64,000 bases of DNA from Arcobacter venerupis. GTDB lineage: Bacteria > Campylobacterota > Campylobacteria > Campylobacterales > Arcobacteraceae. Under the pieces are notes generated by a model. The model saw only the letters and a list, made by a program, of their open reading frames with translations. It had not been told where the DNA came from and made no database searches. A program made the translations under genes and the position numbers. The stretch spans positions 2,356,001 through 2,420,000 of the forward strand of contig NZ_CP053840.1 of NCBI RefSeq assembly GCF_013201665.1, given 5' to 3'. Position 1 is the stretch's first letter. Each line of letters starts with the position of its first letter. Shown here one piece after another: positions 41,631 to 55,495 of this stretch.

Positions 41631-41703
41631 CTTCTTAAATTTACATTAAATATTGCAGTATACTTATACATAAATTATACGATATGTTATGACAGGATTA
41701 AAA

Positions 41704-43692
41704 ATGATTAAATCAGTTTGCGGTTATTGTGGTGTTGGATGCGGATTAGAATTTGAAGAAAATAAATTAATAGGTGACGTTGTATATCCCACAAATGAAG
41801 GAAAACTTTGCTCAAAAGGAGTTTCTGAATTAATAAGTATTCAAACGCCCTCAAGATTATTAAGACCAAAATCAAGAGATGATTTAACCCAAGAATTTAA
41901 AGAAACAACATGGAGTAATGCAATAAGTAAAATCGCAACTCAAATTGCAATTTCTCCAAAAGAAAAAGTAGGATTTTATCTATCAGGTCAGCTTTTAACG
42001 GAAGATTATTATATTGCCAATAAACTAATGAAAGGTTTTATTGGAACTAATAATGTAGATACAAACAGCCGAACTTGTATGTCAAGTGCCGTTGTTGCCT
42101 ATAAAAAGTCTTTAGGAGCTGATTATGTTCCAGTTCGTATGAATGATGTCCATGATGCAAACTTACTTATTTTAGTTGGTGCAAATACAGCTGAAGCTCA
42201 TGTTGTTTTTCATAATAGAATCAAAACTGCAAAAAAACAAGGTCTAAAAATCATTGTAATTGACCCACGATTTACAGATACAGCAAAAATAGCTGACTTA
42301 TTTCTTCCAATAAAACCAGGAAGTGATATTGACTTTTGGAATTTAGTATCAAAAAGAATCATAGATGAGGGTTTAGTTGATGAAAAATTTGTAGAAGAAC
42401 ACGTAAATAACTATGACTTACTAAAAAACAAATTCAAAAGAGTTCCCGTTACAAAAATGCTAAAAAGAACAGGTTTAAGCACTGAGCAATTCGAAGAATT
42501 TTGGCAGCTCTACAAAGAGAATGAAAACATCATAACAGCATGGACCATGGGAATAAATCAATCATCTCAAGGTGTTGATAAAAATCTTGCTATTATAAAT
42601 ACTCACCTTTTAACTGGAAAAATATTCACAAAAGGAAATGGACCATTTTCACTAACTGGTCAACCAAATGCAATGGGAGGACGGGAAGTTGGCGGACTTT
42701 CAACAATACTTGCGGTTCATTTAGGATTTGAAAAAGAGTCCGTTGATAAAGTAAAAGAGTTTTGGAAAACAACAAAAGTTTCAAATATTCCAGGACTTAC
42801 TGCCACTCAAATGCTTGAAGCAAATCTTGATGTTTTAATTATCTGTCACACAGACCCAATTTATCATCTTCCAAATAGAAATAAAATGGAAGAGTTAATG
42901 AAAAAAATCCCAATGGTTGTGGAAATAAATGCCTATGAAAATAGCGAGAGTGCAAAATTTGCCCACATCAGACTTCCAGCTGCTCCGTGGGGAGAAAAAG
43001 AGGGAACTCAAACAAATCTTGACCGAACAATTACAAAACAAGAAAAACTAACAAGAACTTCAATAGATTGTCTTCCTGATTGGGAAATTTTCCAACTAAT
43101 AGCTCAAAGATTAGGATATAAAGAAGCCTTTAATTTTACGTCAACAAAAGAGATTTTTGAAGAGTATCAAGAGATGACAAAACTAAATCCACACCTAAAT
43201 ATTTATGAAGCTTCTTATGATAATCTATCAAAGGAACCATTTATTTGGGGAGAAAAAATCAGAGAAAATAGAGAGTTTCTAACAAAAGATAAAAGAGCAA
43301 ATCTATTTTTTGTGGAAAATAAACTATTAAGCGAAAAAACAAACCTAAAATATCCCTTGACACTACTAACAGGAAGAACAAGAGACCAATGGCATACAGG
43401 AACAAAAACAAATCTTCCAAGAACTCTACTAAAATATAAAGAGCTAAATTTTTGCGAAATTCACCCAACAAACGCAAAACAGTTTGGAATCCAAGATGGA
43501 GATACAATAAAAATCTCATCAATTAGAGGAGAAATAGAATCAAAAGCAATTTTAACGCAAGATATAAGAATCGACACAATTTTTATGCCAATAAGTAATA
43601 GAGATATAAACTACCTAACACACGATTTATACGATAAAGACTCACTGCAACCTGATTATAATCATAGTGCTGTTAAGATTGAGAGGGTTTAA
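41704..43692 (+). CDS. Molybdopterin nitrate reductase, assimilatory (NasA/NarB type)
   Basis: 662-residue molybdenum bis-MGD oxidoreductase. The N-terminal 4Fe-4S site reads CGYCGVGCGLEF followed by KLCSKG; the predicted Mo ligand is the Cys in SRTCMSSAVVAYKKSLG. The C-terminal cofactor domain has TGRTRDQWHTGTKT. No Tat signal peptide is present, so the enzyme is cytoplasmic, as expected for assimilatory nitrate reductase. It lacks the extra C-terminal 2Fe-2S domain of some NasA proteins. The ATG at 41704 has AGGA 6 nt upstream, preferred over 41689. NarK, NirB and NirD elsewhere in the window complete nitrate to ammonium. Confidence 0.88.
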   Translation: MIKSVCGYCGVGCGLEFEENKLIGDVVYPTNEGKLCSKGVSELISIQTPSRLLRPKSRDDLTQEFKETTWSNAISKIATQIAISPKEKVGFYLSGQLLTEDYYIANKLMKGFIGTNNVDTNSRTCMSSAVVAYKKSLGADYVPVRMNDVHDANLLILVGANTAEAHVVFHNRIKTAKKQGLKIIVIDPRFTDTAKIADLFLPIKPGSDIDFWNLVSKRIIDEGLVDEKFVEEHVNNYDLLKNKFKRVPVTKMLKRTGLSTEQFEEFWQLYKENENIITAWTMGINQSSQGVDKNLAIINTHLLTGKIFTKGNGPFSLTGQPNAMGGREVGGLSTILAVHLGFEKESVDKVKEFWKTTKVSNIPGLTATQMLEANLDVLIICHTDPIYHLPNRNKMEELMKKIPMVVEINAYENSESAKFAHIRLPAAPWGEKEGTQTNLDRTITKQEKLTRTSIDCLPDWEIFQLIAQRLGYKEAFNFTSTKEIFEEYQEMTKLNPHLNIYEASYDNLSKEPFIWGEKIRENREFLTKDKRANLFFVENKLLSEKTNLKYPLTLLTGRTRDQWHTGTKTNLPRTLLKYKELNFCEIHPTNAKQFGIQDGDTIKISSIRGEIESKAILTQDIRIDTIFMPISNRDINYLTHDLYDKDSLQPDYNHSAVKIERV

Positions 43693-43856: not shown

Positions 43857-45029
43857 ATGTCAAAGTTTGATGAAGAACAAATTAAAGGTAAACTAAAAGA
43901 ATTAGAAAAATTTTATAATCAAATTAGAGATTATTATTCAATAAAAGAAGAATTAATAAAATCTGATGAAGAAGAATCTTTAAGAAATGTTTTCGAGAAT
44001 GAGATAGCTTTAATAAAAAATAATGCAACTAAATCTTTAAGTATCTTAGAAAAGGCACAAGAAATTGATTCTTTTTTAAATGAAAACAACCGCTTCCAAA
44101 ATGCAAAGAATTTACTTTCAGATGAAACTATAAATCAACTAGAAGATAATAAAGTAGCTATACAAGAAGCTTATACAAATATATTTGAGACTCAAAGCGG
44201 TAATCTAAGTGATGTATACAATGAAATGTATGAAAAAACGAAAAATGCTTATAATGATTTATTTGTTAATAAAACAGGTGAAAAAGTAAAAATTGAAATA
44301 TTAAATGCACATATTGATAAATTTGAAGAGAAATATGCATCTATAATTTCTAATGAAAAATCAATAAGTAATGAAGTTGAAAATTTACATAAAGATTTTA
44401 AAACCAAGCAAACAGAATTAGATAAATTTTATAAAAAAATATTTGGAGATGAAGAAAAAGAAATTAACTCATTAAAAGACGAATTAGAGTTAAGATTATC
44501 TCAATTAAAAGAAACAGAAATAGAAGCAAGAAAAGTAATAAATTTATCAAGTGATGCGGGATTAGGTGGAGGATTTTTTCAAAAGGCTAAAGAAGCAAAA
44601 ATAAATAAATATATAAGTTTAGGAGTTTTTGTATTTGTTTTGATTGTAATGGGATGTTTTAATTTTAATACAATTGATTTTAAAAACTTAAAAGAAATTG
44701 ATTTAATTTCTATTACTGTAAGATTTATGATAAATGCTCCTTTTATTTGGATAGCAACCGTTGCAAATCTAAATTTAAATAAGTATGCTAGACTAGAGCA
44801 AGAGTATTCTCACAAAGAGTCATTAGCAAAATCTTTTGAAAGATACAAAACAGAAATAGAAAAACTTAACGATACAGAAACGGTAAAATCTAAAGAGTTA
44901 TTAGTAGAGTTGATGACATTAAATTTAGAAGCTTTCAAACTCAACCCATCTTTAACTATGGATGGAGCAAAGAGTGATATGGATTTATTGGAAAAAATAA
45001 AAAGTATGAATTTAATATCTAAACCTTAA
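43857..45029 (+). CDS. Uncharacterised coiled-coil membrane protein
   Basis: 390 residues, not recognised. The first about 240 residues are charged and helical with strong coiled-coil character and no signal peptide. Two hydrophobic helices follow (about 260-277 and 285-310; YISLGVFVFVLIVMGCF and FMINAPFIWIATVANLN), then another charged helical stretch (about 312-390). The probable topology has both long helical parts in the cytoplasm. AAGGA lies before the ATG, and a palindrome abuts the -10. It follows the nitrate reductase gene with a 164-bp gap and its own promoter, so it is probably independent. Function unknown; a scaffold or phage-defence-type membrane protein is possible but unsupported. 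Confidence 0.75.
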   Translation: MSKFDEEQIKGKLKELEKFYNQIRDYYSIKEELIKSDEEESLRNVFENEIALIKNNATKSLSILEKAQEIDSFLNENNRFQNAKNLLSDETINQLEDNKVAIQEAYTNIFETQSGNLSDVYNEMYEKTKNAYNDLFVNKTGEKVKIEILNAHIDKFEEKYASIISNEKSISNEVENLHKDFKTKQTELDKFYKKIFGDEEKEINSLKDELELRLSQLKETEIEARKVINLSSDAGLGGGFFQKAKEAKINKYISLGVFVFVLIVMGCFNFNTIDFKNLKEIDLISITVRFMINAPFIWIATVANLNLNKYARLEQEYSHKESLAKSFERYKTEIEKLNDTETVKSKELLVELMTLNLEAFKLNPSLTMDGAKSDMDLLEKIKSMNLISKP

Positions 45030-45165: not shown

Positions 45166-46344
45166 TTAAAGCCACCTTTTAGGCTCAGCCAAATAAAACC
45201 CTTGCAAAAAGTCAATATCTAAGGTTTTTAAAATATCAAAAACTTCTTTTGAATGTACATATTCAGCAACAGTTGTTGCATTTAACTCTTTTGCCATATT
45301 AACAATATTTTTTACTATAGTTTTTGATTCTAATAAGGTATCAATATTTTTTATTAAAGAACCATCAATTTTAATAATTTCTGGTTTCAGTTTCAAAATA
45401 TTTTCCATACTTGAATATCCACTTCCAAAATCATCAATGGCTATTTTACAACCAAATTTTCTAACATATGTAGCAAAATCTTTTACAATATTAAAATCCT
45501 CAATAAAATCAGATTCAAGTATTTCAAATATAATATTTTCTGCTTTATGGAATGTTCTAACTTTTTTATAAATATATTCTCTAAAAGATTTATTTGCTAT
45601 ATCTTCATAACAAAGATTTATACTAAATTCTATATCTAAAGAACTAAATTGTTTAAAACTCTTTTTTATCATAATTCGCATCATTTTTTCATACAGCATT
45701 ATTCTTTTAGCTGTTTGTAAAAATGCAAAAACAGAAAATACCTCTTTAGTTTTGGGATTGATTAATCTCATTAAAGATTCATATTTTTTTATCTCTAAAG
45801 TTTTTGTATCAAAAATTGCTTGAAAATATGGTTCAATAGATGAACTTTCAACTACATCTTTTAAAAATACAATATCACTTAAGAGTTTACTTTGTTCTTC
45901 ATCTTTATATGCTATTGTTAAAATATCTAAATTAATATCTATTATTTTATCCACAGATTTTAATACTTCATATCTTTTTTCTTTAATTAAAATCTCTTTT
46001 AAAAATCCTCTTACATAACTAAATGCTGCATTAACATAATGAGCTGGTAAACCTATACGAACATGAATTTCACTAATCGTATGTAATTTCTTGAAATAGT
46101 TTTCATCATATAATCCACAAAAGAGATTTAGATACCAAAGTTCAATTCCTCTTTCATGTCTTGATAGAATTTCTTTATTATGTAAAAACATACGTGCATG
46201 GTCAAATTCAAATATAAACTCATAAAATCCACTTAATAATTCTTTGGTATAAATACGAGCAATACTTTCTAATTCTTTTAAAGATGAGGCATCTTCTTCA
46301 TTAAATTTATAGTTTTTTAATAACTTTTTATAACTTAAATCCAT
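45166..46344 (-). CDS. Globin-coupled sensor EAL phosphodiesterase
   Basis: 392 residues. The N-terminal domain (about 5-155) is a sensor globin; the proximal haem ligand is probably His94 in TISEIHVRIGLPAHYVNAAF, a pattern diagnostic for globin-coupled sensors. The C-terminal EAL domain (about 165-390) has ESLMRL, NLCYEDI, FEILESDFI, IDDFGSGYSSMENI, IIKIDGSLIKN and LQGFYLAEP. It most likely hydrolyses c-di-GMP in response to O2 or another gas. It is preceded by a chemoreceptor gene with a 13-bp gap, and the operon promoter has a perfect FNR-type box. No transmembrane segment. Confidence 0.88.
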   Translation of the reverse strand: MDLSYKKLLKNYKFNEEDASSLKELESIARIYTKELLSGFYEFIFEFDHARMFLHNKEILSRHERGIELWYLNLFCGLYDENYFKKLHTISEIHVRIGLPAHYVNAAFSYVRGFLKEILIKEKRYEVLKSVDKIIDINLDILTIAYKDEEQSKLLSDIVFLKDVVESSSIEPYFQAIFDTKTLEIKKYESLMRLINPKTKEVFSVFAFLQTAKRIMLYEKMMRIMIKKSFKQFSSLDIEFSINLCYEDIANKSFREYIYKKVRTFHKAENIIFEILESDFIEDFNIVKDFATYVRKFGCKIAIDDFGSGYSSMENILKLKPEIIKIDGSLIKNIDTLLESKTIVKNIVNMAKELNATTVAEYVHSKEVFDILKTLDIDFLQGFYLAEPKRWL

Positions 46345-46357
46345 AGTTTATTTCCCA

Positions 46358-47767
46358 TTAACTGCATCGTTTACAAGCAATACTATCTTTCCCTAAAAAC
46401 TCTTTTTGATTTGCATTATCCACAATTTTATTGGCAATATCTGATGTTCTAACTGCAATATTATTTGCTTGAGATGATACCTCAGCATTTGCTCGAACTT
46501 GTTTTTCAAGTATATTTATTGCATCATTTATTTGAACTATTCCTGTTTGTTGTACTTTTGATGTATTTGCTACATCACCTATTAATTCAATAGTTTTATC
46601 AATATTTGTATTTAAAATAGTATAACCATCAATCATATCATTTGCTATTTTTTTTCCATTATTTGCTTTTATATTTGCAGATTCAACAAGATCTTTTATC
46701 TCTTTTGCAGCTTCTGTACTTCTATTTGCTAAATTTCTTACTTCTTGTGCAACAACAGCAAATCCCTTTCCTGCTTCACCAGCAGTTGCTGCTTCTACAG
46801 CTGCATTTAAAGAAAGAATATTTGTTTGAAAAGCTATTTGGTCAATTATTGTAATTGATTCATTTATGGCGCTTACTTTTTCATTTATTTCATCCATTGC
46901 TGTGGTCGTTTTATAAGCTAAAGATAAACCCTCATTTGCATAACCTACAACTGCATTTGCAAGGGTTGACATTTGAATAGTTTGAGTTGAAGTTTTATCA
47001 ACATTTTGAGTTATTTCACTCAATACAAGTGCTGTATTTTTCAAACTTATTGCTGCTTCATTTGAAGATAAATTTAATTTATCCACATTATCCAAAAGGC
47101 TTTCAGATGAATTTTGTAAAGATACACCATCTGTTTTATTTGCCAATAACATTTGAGTTATTGCCTCTTTTAATTTATTAACAGCCTCTACTAAATGTTG
47201 AAACTCTCCCTCTGAAGAAATAGTTTTAAATTCTAAAGTATCTCTATAATCATAATTTGTATATTTTTCTAAAATGCTATTAACATTTAAAAAATTTTGT
47301 CTTGTTTCAATAATCATTTCATTAACACCTTTTTTAAACTCTTCTAATGATTTGTTTGATGTTGTTGATGTTATGATTTGTGAATATAAACCTTGTTTTA
47401 CCTTATCCATTACAGATTTTGCTTCTTCAATTAAAAATGATTCTTCTTTTTCTTTTTTAATAAGTTCTTTTTCTCTGTTATCTATAACTTCTTTTATTTC
47501 AGTATATTCACTGGCCATTGTAGTATTTATTTCAAAACTAACATTTTTATTATCCATATTTTTAAGAAAGCTAACTAACTCTTTTGATAATAATTTTCCA
47601 TTTTTTCTTTCATCTAACTCATGAATAACAAGTGCTAATGCAATAATGATTTGAACAATTTGTGAAATAGTTGTTGTAGTAAATAAAAATGCATTCAAAG
47701 GAAGTATTATAATTCCCAAATAATGTACTATTGTCATTCTAAAATATAATGATTTTAAATTAAACAT
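46358..47767 (-). CDS. Methyl-accepting chemotaxis protein with short membrane hairpin
   Basis: 469 residues. Two hydrophobic helices near the N-terminus (about 12-28 and 33-50) enclose no real periplasmic domain. A coiled-coil linker (about 90-200) and the signalling region follow, with tip [20 protein letters not shown] and the variant [17 protein letters not shown]. The C-terminus reads CKRCS, with two cysteines, and lacks a CheR-docking motif. It is the first gene of an operon with the globin-coupled EAL sensor, so input from that partner or from cytoplasmic signals is likely. AGGAGA lies before the ATG. Confidence 0.9.
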
Positions 47768-47795
47768 AAGATCTCCTATAATATTTATATCGCGA

Positions 47796-47837
47796 AGTAT
47801 AATAGAATAGGAAATTTTTTATCTTGATTAGAATCAA
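47796..47837 (-). promoter_or_regulatory. Perfect FNR-type box with class II spacing
   Basis: TTGAT-TCTA-ATCAA on the minus strand (47824-47837) is an exact FNR consensus. TATACT (47796-47801) begins 30 nt from its centre, placing the box at about -41.5 from the expected start. It would activate the chemoreceptor/globin-EAL operon, consistent with oxygen control. Confidence 0.6.
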
Positions 47838-51961: not shown

Positions 51962-52423
51962 TTAGATTCCTAAACCACCAATAAATTCTTCTTTATAAAT
52001 ATCTTCTTTTTGTATTGGTTTTTGACCCAAGCATGAAGCTATAGTCATCTTATCCAAAATTTGAGCTGTTAAATTTCGTATATTTAAAAAAACTCTTCTA
52101 AAATAACATTTACTCTCTTGAGAACATGGTTCATAATTTGAAACACTAACACAAGAAATCATAGCAATCATTCCCTCGAAGTGTCTTATAACCTCACCTA
52201 ATGTTATCTCATTTGCATCTTTTGCAAGTGCATAACCACCATATCTTCCTGGAATACTTTTCACCCAACCTGCATTATTCATTTCAAGCATTATATTTTC
52301 TAAAAATCTTCTTGGAACATCAATGTTTTCAGATAGAATTTTTGTTGAGATTGACTCCCCTTTTAACTCTGCTATTGCGAATAAAGCTCTAAGAGCATAA
52401 TCTGTTTTTTTTGATACTTTCAT
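51962..52423 (-). CDS. Rrf2-family regulator with Fe-S-type cysteines
   Basis: 153-residue Rrf2 protein: winged helix (TDYALRALFAIAELKGESIS; IDVPRRFLENIMLEMNNAGW; SIPGRYGGYALAKDANEIT) and a three-Cys region (CVSVSNYEPCSQESKCYF) similar in position to the Fe-S ligands of IscR. Directly upstream of the sulfate uptake operon on the same strand, it probably controls sulfur assimilation, like CymR-type Rrf2 proteins. It has a matching operator-like site over its own transcription start. Ribosome site AGG 8 nt before the ATG. Confidence 0.88.
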   Translation of the reverse strand: MKVSKKTDYALRALFAIAELKGESISTKILSENIDVPRRFLENIMLEMNNAGWVKSIPGRYGGYALAKDANEITLGEVIRHFEGMIAMISCVSVSNYEPCSQESKCYFRRVFLNIRNLTAQILDKMTIASCLGQKPIQKEDIYKEEFIGGLGI

Positions 52424-52719: not shown

Positions 52720-55185
52720 GTGAAAGAAAAACTAGTAGTAATCGGAAATGGGATGAGTGGACTTCGAACCATCGAAGACCTTTTAGAAATAAATAAAGAT
52801 AAATATGACATCACTATTTATGGTGAAGAACCTCATGTAAACTATAATAGAATCATGCTCTCATATATTCTTTCACAAGAAAAAACTTTTGAAGATACAA
52901 TCATCAATCATTTATCTTGGTATGAACAAAACAATATCACTTTACACAAAGGCGATAAGATTGTATCAATAGATAAAAATAGTAAAACAATCAAAAGTGA
53001 TAGTGGAAAAACTGAATCTTACGACAAACTTCTAATAGCAACTGGCTCAAGAGCTTTTGTTCCTAAAACAAAAGGAAGTGACCTTGAAAATGTAATTGCT
53101 TTTAGAACAAAAGCCGATGTTGATGCAATTATTAGCACAATTAGAAAAGATAAAACTGCCGTTGTTGTGGGTGGTGGACTTCTTGGACTTGAAGCTGCTT
53201 ATGGAATTGCAAAACATGGAATTAAAACTATTTTAGTTCATAGAAGTGGAAGTATCCTTTCTCAACAACTTGACTCAACTGGTGGAAAATTACTTCAAAA
53301 AAATCTTGAATCTTATGGAATAGAGTTTAAATTAAACACAACTATCCAAGAGATAAGTGGTGATGGAATTGTTGAAAAAGTGAGTTTCACAGATGGTGTT
53401 AGTGTTGAGTCAAACTTAGTTGTATTTGCAACTGGAATTATTCCAAACACAGCACTAGCTCTTGAAGCAGAACTTGAAACAAAAAAAGGAATCATTGTAA
53501 ATGATTTTTTGAAAACTTCAGATGATTCTATTTTTGCCATTGGAGAGTGTGTTGAACACAATGGAAATACTTATGGTTTAGTTGCCCCACTTTATGAACA
53601 AGCAAAAGTTTTAGCAAAAGTTCTAGCAGATAAAAAAACTGAAGGTTATGAGGGTTCAACTTTATCAACTAGACTTAAAATCTCAGGTGTTGATTTGTTT
53701 AGTGCAGGAGATTATTTAGGTGATGTTACAACTGAGGATTTAATTTTACTTGATGAAAAAGTTGGAATCTATAAAAAACTTGTAATCTATGAAAACAAAA
53801 TCATTGGAGTTGTACTTTATGGAGATACAAGTGATGCTTCTTGGTATTTAAAACTTCTAAAAGAACATACTGATATTTCAGATTTACGAACAAAAATCCT
53901 ATTTGGAAAATCAGCAATATCTGGAGATAGCGGTCATGGTGGAAATGACATAAATGCCATGAGTGATGATGAAGAAGTTTGTGGATGTAATGGAGTTTGT
54001 AAAGGTGACATTGTATCTGCCATCAAAGATAAAGATTTAAAATCACTAAGCGATGTAAAATCTTGCACAAAAGCTGGAGCTTCTTGTGGTTCATGTTTAG
54101 GTTTAGTTGAGCAAATTTTAGTAAATACTTTGGGTGATGAATACAACGCTGTTGAAGAGGGAATTTGTTCATGTACAACACTTGGACACAAAGATATTAA
54201 AAAAGCAGTTGATGAGGGTGAATTTGAAACTGTTTATGACGTTTTTAAATCATTAGAGTGGAAAACGCAGGAAGGTTGTTCAAAATGCCGACCAGCAGTA
54301 AACTACTACTTACTTGTAAAATATAATGATGATAAATATAAAAATGATAAAAGAAGTGCACTTGTAAACGATAGAATGTTTGCAAATATCCAAAAAGATG
54401 GAACTTATTCTGTGGTTCCTAGAATTTGGGGAGGACTTACAAGTCCACAAGAGTTAAAAGATATTGCAGATATTGCAGTTAAATACGATGTTCCAACTGT
54501 TAAATTCACAGGTGGTCAAAGACTTGATATGTTGGGAGTAAAAAAAGAGCAACTTGAACCTATGTGGAAAGATTTAAATGATGCTGGTTTTGTATCAGGT
54601 CAAGCTTATGCAAAGGGTCTGAGAACTGTAAAAACTTGTGTTGGAAATACTTGGTGTAGATTTGGAACTCAAGATTCTATGAATATGGGTGTGATTATTG
54701 AAAAACTAACATGGGGATCTTGGACTCCTCACAAATTTAAAATTGCAGTTTCAGGCTGTCCTAGAAATTGTGCGGAAGCAACTATCAAAGATTTAGGAAT
54801 TATTGGAGTTGATTCTGGTTGGGAAATCTCAATCGCTGGAAACGGTGGTATAAAAGTGAGAGTTACAGATTTCCTTTGTAAAGTGGAAACCGATGAAGAG
54901 TTATTAACTTATGTAAAAGCCTTTATGCAATTTTATAGAGAAGATGCTTATTATCTAGAAAGAACAGCTCATTGGGTTGAAAGAACTGGATTACAATATG
55001 TAAAAGATGTGCTGTTAAACAAAGAAAAAGTGGCATATTATGCCCAAAGATTTGAAATATCACAAAAATCAGCACAAGTTGATCCTTGGGCAAAAGCAAT
55101 TGAAGATGGATTTACAAAAGAGTTTAATTCAATTGTTATAAACCCAGAAGAATCTTTTAGTTTTGAAGCAAAGGAGCAAATTTAA
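52720..55185 (+). CDS. nirB: NADH-dependent nitrite reductase large subunit NirB
   Basis: 821-residue cytoplasmic assimilatory nitrite reductase (nitrite to ammonium). Order: FAD/NAD(P) oxidoreductase module (about 1-400; VIGNGMSGLRTIEDL, VVVGGGLLGLEAAYG), two BFD-like Cys-rich modules (CGCNGVC near 420 with SCGSC; CSCTT near 483 with GCSKC), then the sirohaem/4Fe-4S domain with TCVGNTWC (near 640) and SGCPRNC (near 678). All four cluster cysteines are visible. The start is GTG, 6 nt after AAAGGA. It is followed by nirD. Confidence 0.95.
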   Translation: MKEKLVVIGNGMSGLRTIEDLLEINKDKYDITIYGEEPHVNYNRIMLSYILSQEKTFEDTIINHLSWYEQNNITLHKGDKIVSIDKNSKTIKSDSGKTESYDKLLIATGSRAFVPKTKGSDLENVIAFRTKADVDAIISTIRKDKTAVVVGGGLLGLEAAYGIAKHGIKTILVHRSGSILSQQLDSTGGKLLQKNLESYGIEFKLNTTIQEISGDGIVEKVSFTDGVSVESNLVVFATGIIPNTALALEAELETKKGIIVNDFLKTSDDSIFAIGECVEHNGNTYGLVAPLYEQAKVLAKVLADKKTEGYEGSTLSTRLKISGVDLFSAGDYLGDVTTEDLILLDEKVGIYKKLVIYENKIIGVVLYGDTSDASWYLKLLKEHTDISDLRTKILFGKSAISGDSGHGGNDINAMSDDEEVCGCNGVCKGDIVSAIKDKDLKSLSDVKSCTKAGASCGSCLGLVEQILVNTLGDEYNAVEEGICSCTTLGHKDIKKAVDEGEFETVYDVFKSLEWKTQEGCSKCRPAVNYYLLVKYNDDKYKNDKRSALVNDRMFANIQKDGTYSVVPRIWGGLTSPQELKDIADIAVKYDVPTVKFTGGQRLDMLGVKKEQLEPMWKDLNDAGFVSGQAYAKGLRTVKTCVGNTWCRFGTQDSMNMGVIIEKLTWGSWTPHKFKIAVSGCPRNCAEATIKDLGIIGVDSGWEISIAGNGGIKVRVTDFLCKVETDEELLTYVKAFMQFYREDAYYLERTAHWVERTGLQYVKDVLLNKEKVAYYAQRFEISQKSAQVDPWAKAIEDGFTKEFNSIVINPEESFSFEAKEQI

Positions 55186-55186
55186 T

Positions 55187-55495
55187 ATGTCAAAATGGTA
55201 CAAAATCACAGAAGTTGAAAATATCCCTGAAATGGGTTCAAGAAAAGTAGAAATTGGCGAAACTGAAATCGCAATTTTTAAAACAAGAGATGGTGCAATC
55301 TTTGCTGTAAACAATGTATGTCCCCATAAAAAAGGAAAACTAAGTGAAGGTTTAGTTCATGACAAAATAGTAACTTGCCCTTTACACAACTGGGAAATAG
55401 ATTTAAAAACAGGACAAGCTTTGGGAAATGATAGTGGTTGCACGGGGGTTTATGAAACGAGAGTTGAGGATAATTATTTATATATTAGTATTTAA
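55187..55495 (+). CDS. nirD: Nitrite reductase small subunit NirD, Rieske-type
   Basis: 102-residue partner of NirB. It has a complete Rieske 2Fe-2S site: C-x-H in CPHKKGKL and C-x2-H in CPLHNWEIDL, unlike the enterobacterial NirD that lacks the ligands. The ATG at 55187, just after the nirB stop (55185) with AAGGAG upstream, is preferred over an in-frame codon at 55163 inside nirB. Transfers electrons or stabilises the NirB complex. Confidence 0.92.
   Translation: MSKWYKITEVENIPEMGSRKVEIGETEIAIFKTRDGAIFAVNNVCPHKKGKLSEGLVHDKIVTCPLHNWEIDLKTGQALGNDSGCTGVYETRVEDNYLYISI

Follow-up and report, generated by a model that had tools for sequence, protein, structure and literature searches.

Which signal governs the transcription of a chemoreceptor/globin operon in Arcobacter venerupis that is preceded by an exact palindrome of the Crp/Fnr type? 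A first-pass annotation of the window (the whole stretch of 64 kb that was analysed) had proposed oxygen, sensed once by FNR at the promoter and again by the globin.

Promoter geometry and encoded proteins

The following features of the window are concerned.

45166..46344, minus strand: predicted globin-coupled c-di-GMP phosphodiesterase, 392 aa, from its domain matches (Protoglobin + EAL, PF11563 + PF00563)
46358..47767, minus strand: methyl-accepting chemotaxis protein (MCP, PF00015), 469 aa, first gene of the operon
47796..47801, minus strand: -10 hexamer TATACT, 22 nt 3' of the box TTGATTCTAATCAA
47824..47837, minus strand: predicted activator box of Crp/Fnr type (Nss/Dnr-like), TTGATTCTAATCAA, centre at 47830.5, predicted at -41.5

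As annotated earlier, TTGAT-N4-ATCAA and TATACT are found at class II spacing, with 22 nt between box and hexamer. On the minus strand, the hexamer TATACT begins, with its first T, 29.5 nt from the box centre. When this hexamer is taken as positions -12 to -7, the +1 is predicted at 47789, a start site deduced from the position of TATACT, and the box centre falls at -41.5. TTGAT-N4-ATCAA thus occupies, relative to a predicted -10 hexamer, the place expected in an FNR regulon, and both the palindrome and the class II spacing are those of E. coli FNR. The same geometry is encountered at Nss-type sites. In Nitrosophilus, part of PMC11539149 describes a TTGA-N6-TCAA site, exact copies of which begin 49 nt upstream of the predicted start of napA and 48 nt upstream of those of norE and nosB. 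A site start 48 nt before +1 equals a box centre at -41.5, and by sequence and -10 spacing the window's box is a TTGA-N6-TCAA site lying about 48-49 nt before a start that is itself predicted.

The annotated content of the operon, an MCP and a globin-coupled c-di-GMP phosphodiesterase, was borne out by the domains PF00015, PF11563 and PF00563. The N-terminus of the MCP is hydrophobic (judged by eye), and no Pfam sensor domain was found in this protein. In the globin-EAL protein, His94 and Tyr41 are invariant in 14/14 sequences, as are the EAL motif residues E189, N243, E274, D304-D305, K325, E361 and Q381; these counts cover 14 of the 15 globin-EAL sequences, the G086 protein (L087, with masked letters) being left out. 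His94 is presumably the proximal position, going by the IHVRIGL motif, and the EAL residues are taken by us to form the catalytic motif. Since all these residues are invariant, the protein probably binds heme and hydrolyses c-di-GMP. A protoglobin whose His is conserved, joined to an output domain, is the architecture of a globin-coupled sensor. GCS-HD-GYP of Vibrio fluvialis, as presented in part of PMC10882959, likewise couples a protoglobin sensor to a c-di-GMP enzyme, whereas in the present protein an EAL domain serves as output, and the gene shares its operon with an MCP devoid of a Pfam sensor domain.

Conservation of the box and genes that share it

The exact box occurs once in the window, which is not beyond chance expectation, and sites with at most one mismatch are not enriched (17 versus 13.1 expected). 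Over the 3.21-Mb genome, 27 exact copies of TTGATNNNNATCAA were counted versus 7 of the reversed pattern. Because 22 of these 27 sites lie inside ORFs, the raw excess is weak evidence, and raw counting in window or genome was rejected as undecisive proof. The 5 intergenic sites precede hcp, a gene for a NIT-domain MCP-like protein, a Crp/Fnr gene, a gene for a hemerythrin-domain protein, whose box is identical to that of the window's operon, and the MCP/globin-EAL operon itself; the site at the Crp/Fnr gene was counted as intergenic, an overlapping ORF of 90 aa flagged by the script being judged spurious. The motif was also searched for with the -10 element included. Allowing one mismatch made the search too noisy (63 and 59 matches versus 44 and 34 in the control), and this version was abandoned; the window's own site did not appear among the matches listed for it, although the exact search does recover that site and a regex agrees. 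With the exact box, N22 and TANNNT, 205 matches were obtained over the 15 genomes carrying the operon versus 20 for the reversed-pattern control, which represents an approximately tenfold excess, and the count was above control in each genome.

Conservation was assessed at the operon itself. An exact TTGAY-N4-RTCAA followed after 22 nt by TANNNT was found in 15 of 16 promoters from the 15 related genomes, 64-70 nt before the start codon, several of the genomes being closely related so that the cases are not independent. Of 8000 shuffled versions of these 16 promoters with dinucleotide content preserved, 10 contained the box. All MCP promoters located contain the box (14/14, a count without G078, whose MCP could not be located). 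In G085 the MCP and EAL genes are separate, each with its own box; in G017 a lone EAL gene is without box and an MCP 70% identical to that of the window, encoded elsewhere, has one. Among EAL-only promoters within the family, 1 of 3 is without box. The genes upstream of the operon vary between relatives (a GNAT acetyltransferase, a divergent NirB-like gene, ABC-transport genes and others). Because the box is conserved in spite of these differing upstream genes, it is credible as a promoter element and, going by sequence and spacing, the promoter of the MCP/globin-EAL operon is a conserved one of class II Crp/Fnr type.

The surroundings of the operon were also inspected. In the window, the region is flanked by a molybdopterin oxidoreductase, nitrate-reductase-like by eye (41689-43692), as well as by a NirB-like gene (52720-55185) and a Rieske/NirD-like gene (55163-55495), an ABC-transport operon separating the MCP from the NirB-like gene. 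A 390-aa protein without Pfam match (43857-45029) adjoins the operon here and in Arcobacter caeni (L039). In the relatives L037, L038 and L079, the operon lies directly between genes like those that flank the region in the window, as judged by eye.

Among the matches listed, at least 15 of 104 family genomes, the window's included, encode a relative of the globin-EAL protein over nearly its full length (61-100% identity), and the other family matches listed cover mainly the EAL half. The named operon relatives are recorded as Arcobacter or Aliarcobacter. In other families of the order, 17 of 398 genomes have a match to the globin-EAL protein. In stretches of 5.2-5.4 kb from 9 of these 17 genomes (42-57% identity), none of the nine relatives has an exact box nearby, and hence this wiring of globin-EAL seems specific to the Arcobacter-like family. 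In one outside genome (G315), a Cache-domain MCP directly precedes the globin-EAL gene without a box (L267, 1986-4866), so that the pairing with a chemoreceptor appears to recur independently of the promoter. A short protein with a cNMP-binding domain precedes the outside-family globin-EAL gene in L265 (2843-3295, PF00027) and in L269 (2803-3255, by eye).

The genes placed under the same arrangement were then considered. In the genome of the window (G000), 13 exact matches to box, N22 and TANNNT were obtained, of which 12 were inspected, the one at 2851857 being left out. Seven of the 12 are promoters in the right orientation and the remaining 5 do not lie at promoters. The correctly placed ones precede the following genes.

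hcp (PF03063)
HPP-family membrane protein (PF04982)
napA
NIT-MCP
small cytochrome c
hemerythrin
MCP/globin-EAL operon

The name napA was given by eye, from a TAT signal and a molybdopterin oxidoreductase domain, and a NapB gene lies nearby. In four relatives (G004, G011, G017 and G019), all 21 sites are intergenic in 20 regions, a selected sample picked by eye, among the matches listed, because the -10 hexamers were good or the sites composite. Their downstream genes, some named by eye, encode cytochromes, an MCP (PF00015), hemerythrins, a napA-like protein, FeoA, an ABC permease, hcp and others. As judged from sequence, nap, hcp and other nitrogen-oxide genes thus stand under one box, as in an Nss/Dnr regulon, and the genes sharing the arrangement appear to point to nitrate, nitrite and NO.

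Candidate regulators and the controlling signal

A genome without any Crp/Fnr-family regulator had been named in the first-pass annotation as incompatible with its proposal; such proteins are present. Two proteins are above the HTH_Crp_2 cut-off, in addition to 2 short and 2 long cNMP proteins. The candidate binders are listed below.

C1:3115083-3115724: Reg1, 215 aa, best candidate binder, with a box in its own promoter and adjoining a ygbA_NO gene
C1:520063-520722: Reg2, Dnr-like, alternative binder, near nap genes and next to a PilJ-type sensor

Reg1 contains one cysteine. Among 32 Reg1 orthologues examined, out of at least 55 matches at 51% identity or more, 31 have the box in their own promoter and 31 have a ygbA_NO-type neighbour, recognised by PF11756 in the genome of the window and by a cysteine motif in the relatives. 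No TANNNT lies 22 nt from the box at these genes, in either direction. Hence, this site would not be of class II, and it may serve autorepression of reg1 rather than activation. Besides, 97 of 104 family genomes have a Reg1-like match at E<=1e-10, in contrast with a passage of the review PMC6682613 according to which A. butzleri is without a homologue of the FNR/CRP family.

A third paralogue, Reg3, occurs in relatives and is missing from the genome of the window and from G011. By identity, Reg1 is found in 8, Reg2 in 13 and Reg3 in 13 of the 15 operon genomes, G086 and G087 having only Reg3; G076, without Reg1, is only 74% complete. Naming a single regulator through its co-occurrence with the operon failed, no paralogue being present in all 15 genomes. 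Reg1, Reg2 and Reg3 share the recognition helix P-E-T-x-S-R (in nearly all sequences), so that the binder is not nameable from sequence. This helix presumably fits TTGAY half-sites, by correspondence to FNR; that of E. coli FNR reads E..SR, as in the candidates here. Part of the specificity discussion in PMC1274295 is in line with such a fit. As for the sensing part, the FNR-type cysteine cluster (C-x2-4-C-x4-8-C) was found in none of the 83 Crp/Fnr sequences examined, of which 82 are distinct and 3 are fragments below 200 aa, and in neither of the two short cNMP proteins of the window's genome, the two long ones being left out. In this the candidates examined differ from E. coli FNR and agree with an Nss/Dnr regulon, whose Crp/Fnr regulator is devoid of Fe-S cysteines.

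Crp/Fnr regulators, a TTGA-N6-TCAA site and a nap target are likewise features of the Nss regulons of Wolinella (NssA, NssB and NssC) and Nitrosophilus, as described in parts of PMC11539149 and PMC6682613, and the latter reports that the three Wolinella proteins respond to nitrate, NO and N2O. Campylobacter NssR differs by its site, given as TTAAC-N4-GTTAA in part of PMC1274295. In the portion concerned of that same study, HcpR, DNR and NnrR are without the FNR cysteine motif, hcp, hemerythrin-like and cytochrome c-like genes are frequent in predicted HcpR regulons, and several regulons of the HcpR/DNR type have FNR-like sites, as is the case for the box here. Predicted hcp, hemerythrin and cytochrome c targets, together with regulators lacking the FNR motif, are therefore common to these regulons and to the present one. 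Among solved structures, the best relative of Reg2 is the DNR protein 3dkw and that of Reg1 is Lmo0753, followed by several entries called FNR type regulator, a ranking from which no branch is assigned. The likeness to Nss concerns site, gene set and cysteine-less regulators. The predicted regulon thus resembles an Nss/Dnr-type nitrogen-oxide regulon, to which it would add chemoreceptors and the globin-EAL enzyme.

From these comparisons, the box is quite probably an operator bound by a cysteine-less activator of the Nss/Dnr type, with nitrate or nitrogen oxides as the signal and the operon switched together with the regulon. The activator, Reg1 as the best candidate or Reg2 as the alternative, would bind TTGAY-N4-RTCAA at -41.5 and recruit RNA polymerase to TATACT in class II fashion. 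In the presence of nitrate or nitrogen oxides, the operon would be turned on along with hcp, napA, hemerythrin and the NIT-domain chemoreceptor. Depending on which gas is bound, O2 or NO, the chemoreceptor and the heme-globin EAL protein would then modulate swimming and bring c-di-GMP down.

Rival readings and a second palindrome

The oxygen reading supposes a true O2-responsive FNR, with a 4Fe-4S cluster, controlling the operon, so that oxygen would act on transcription and again on the globin. The fit of the box to the FNR consensus and to class II spacing, the FNR type regulator entries following Lmo0753 among the solved relatives of Reg1, and a globin with conserved His94 and Tyr41 are all compatible with it. 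However, the cysteine cluster of FNR is missing from the 83 regulators and from the two shorter cNMP proteins, the review PMC6682613 reports in its relevant passage that FNR orthologues are absent from Campylobacterota, and the genes under the box centre on nitrogen oxides, which makes an FNR of this kind improbable. What stands of the earlier proposal is a Crp/Fnr-type class II promoter in front of the operon; its O2-sensing FNR is not supported, nor are the "two layers of O2 control", because FNR-type cysteines are absent from the sequences examined, no FNR orthologue is known in Campylobacterota according to that review, and the gene set concerns nitrate and NO. Crp/Fnr proteins without such cysteines could sense redox or O2 through a different mechanism. 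Most likely, an Nss/Dnr-type regulator conveys nitrate or nitrogen oxides as the signal, rather than FNR conveying O2, and the better guess is that nitrogen oxides control transcription, with a heme globin to which either O2 or NO may bind. It is also conceivable that the box arose by chance or is a relic, the operon being transcribed by read-through from the upstream ABC-transport genes, since a single exact box in 64 kb is close to what chance would give, the gene upstream of the MCP is co-directional with the operon and a scan for terminators separating the MCP from the ABC-transport genes found none. Such an accident is very hard to reconcile with a box kept at a fixed distance in relatives whose upstream genes differ and are in some cases divergent.

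A composite promoter deserves more weight, owing to one further element.

47808..47826, strand not assigned: degenerate copy, with one mismatch in its best 15-mer (47810-47824), of a second conserved palindrome whose consensus is RGAYA-N5-TRTCY

In the window this copy overlaps the edge of the box and the -35 region. The Crp/Fnr box would here activate, and a second regulator, for which an Fe-S protein of the Rrf2 type is a candidate, would repress or co-activate from RGAYA-N5-TRTCY over the -35 region; two signals would be read, and the second site would be partly decayed in this genome. The palindrome is perfect in 13 of 14 MCP promoters, the window's having its one mismatch, versus 0.11% of mononucleotide shuffles (a partly circular comparison, these promoters being the source of the consensus), 0/3 EAL-only promoters and 4/26 other box promoters. 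Of the 13 MCP promoters from relatives, 11 have it across the -35 region; it directly follows the box in 12 of all 14, the window included, but lies upstream of it in the other two. In the window's genome, similar palindromes are found near sufB, mrp, nifH, napA and a cytochrome c peroxidase gene; at one mismatch or fewer, they also occur by the reg1/ygbA promoter at 17 of 32 loci. Yet across the genome they exceed the control only modestly (12 and 15 versus 4 and 9), and many copies lie inside ORFs. Three Rrf2 proteins are encoded in the genome. We regard the composite promoter as plausible, though somewhat less likely than not. One Rrf2-family regulator of the window (51962-52423), located upstream of the ABC-transport operon, has three clustered cysteines and matches the CymR, Suf-regulator, NsrR and IscR models, all below cut-off. 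Box and second palindrome also occur together at a predicted exported protein of about 75 aa without Pfam match in three relatives (L246, L255 and L257).

Returning to the nitrogen-oxide activator as the preferred reading, a broader proposal can be formulated, which we hold as somewhat doubtful. In Arcobacter relatives, a nitrogen-oxide Crp/Fnr regulon may have absorbed a gas-sensing module, made of the sensor-less MCP and the soluble globin-EAL protein as a possible pair, so that a single gas circuit would set chemotaxis and c-di-GMP. The RGAYA-N5-TRTCY operator, unmatched to a described one and present as well at promoters of Fe-S assembly, nap and ygbA genes, would make this a two-signal gate, of which the window's genome would be losing the second site.

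Regulons of the Nss, HcpR and DNR types are known already; the chemoreceptor/globin-EAL operon is added here as a predicted target, and no description of its regulation was recognised in the literature among the matches listed. An extension of the nitrogen-oxide regulon to chemotaxis and c-di-GMP, with a composite promoter, is possible. The arrangement of box, 22 nt and -10 hexamer, with its excess over control, also provides a testable regulon prediction. This locus further illustrates that a right motif call can lead to a wrong signal if the regulator itself is left unexamined. If true, control by nitrate or nitrosative stress would be linked to motility and c-di-GMP signalling in the Arcobacter-like family, in which respiratory regulation is little described and which includes A. 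butzleri, referred to as a food-borne pathogen in part of PMC11334517.
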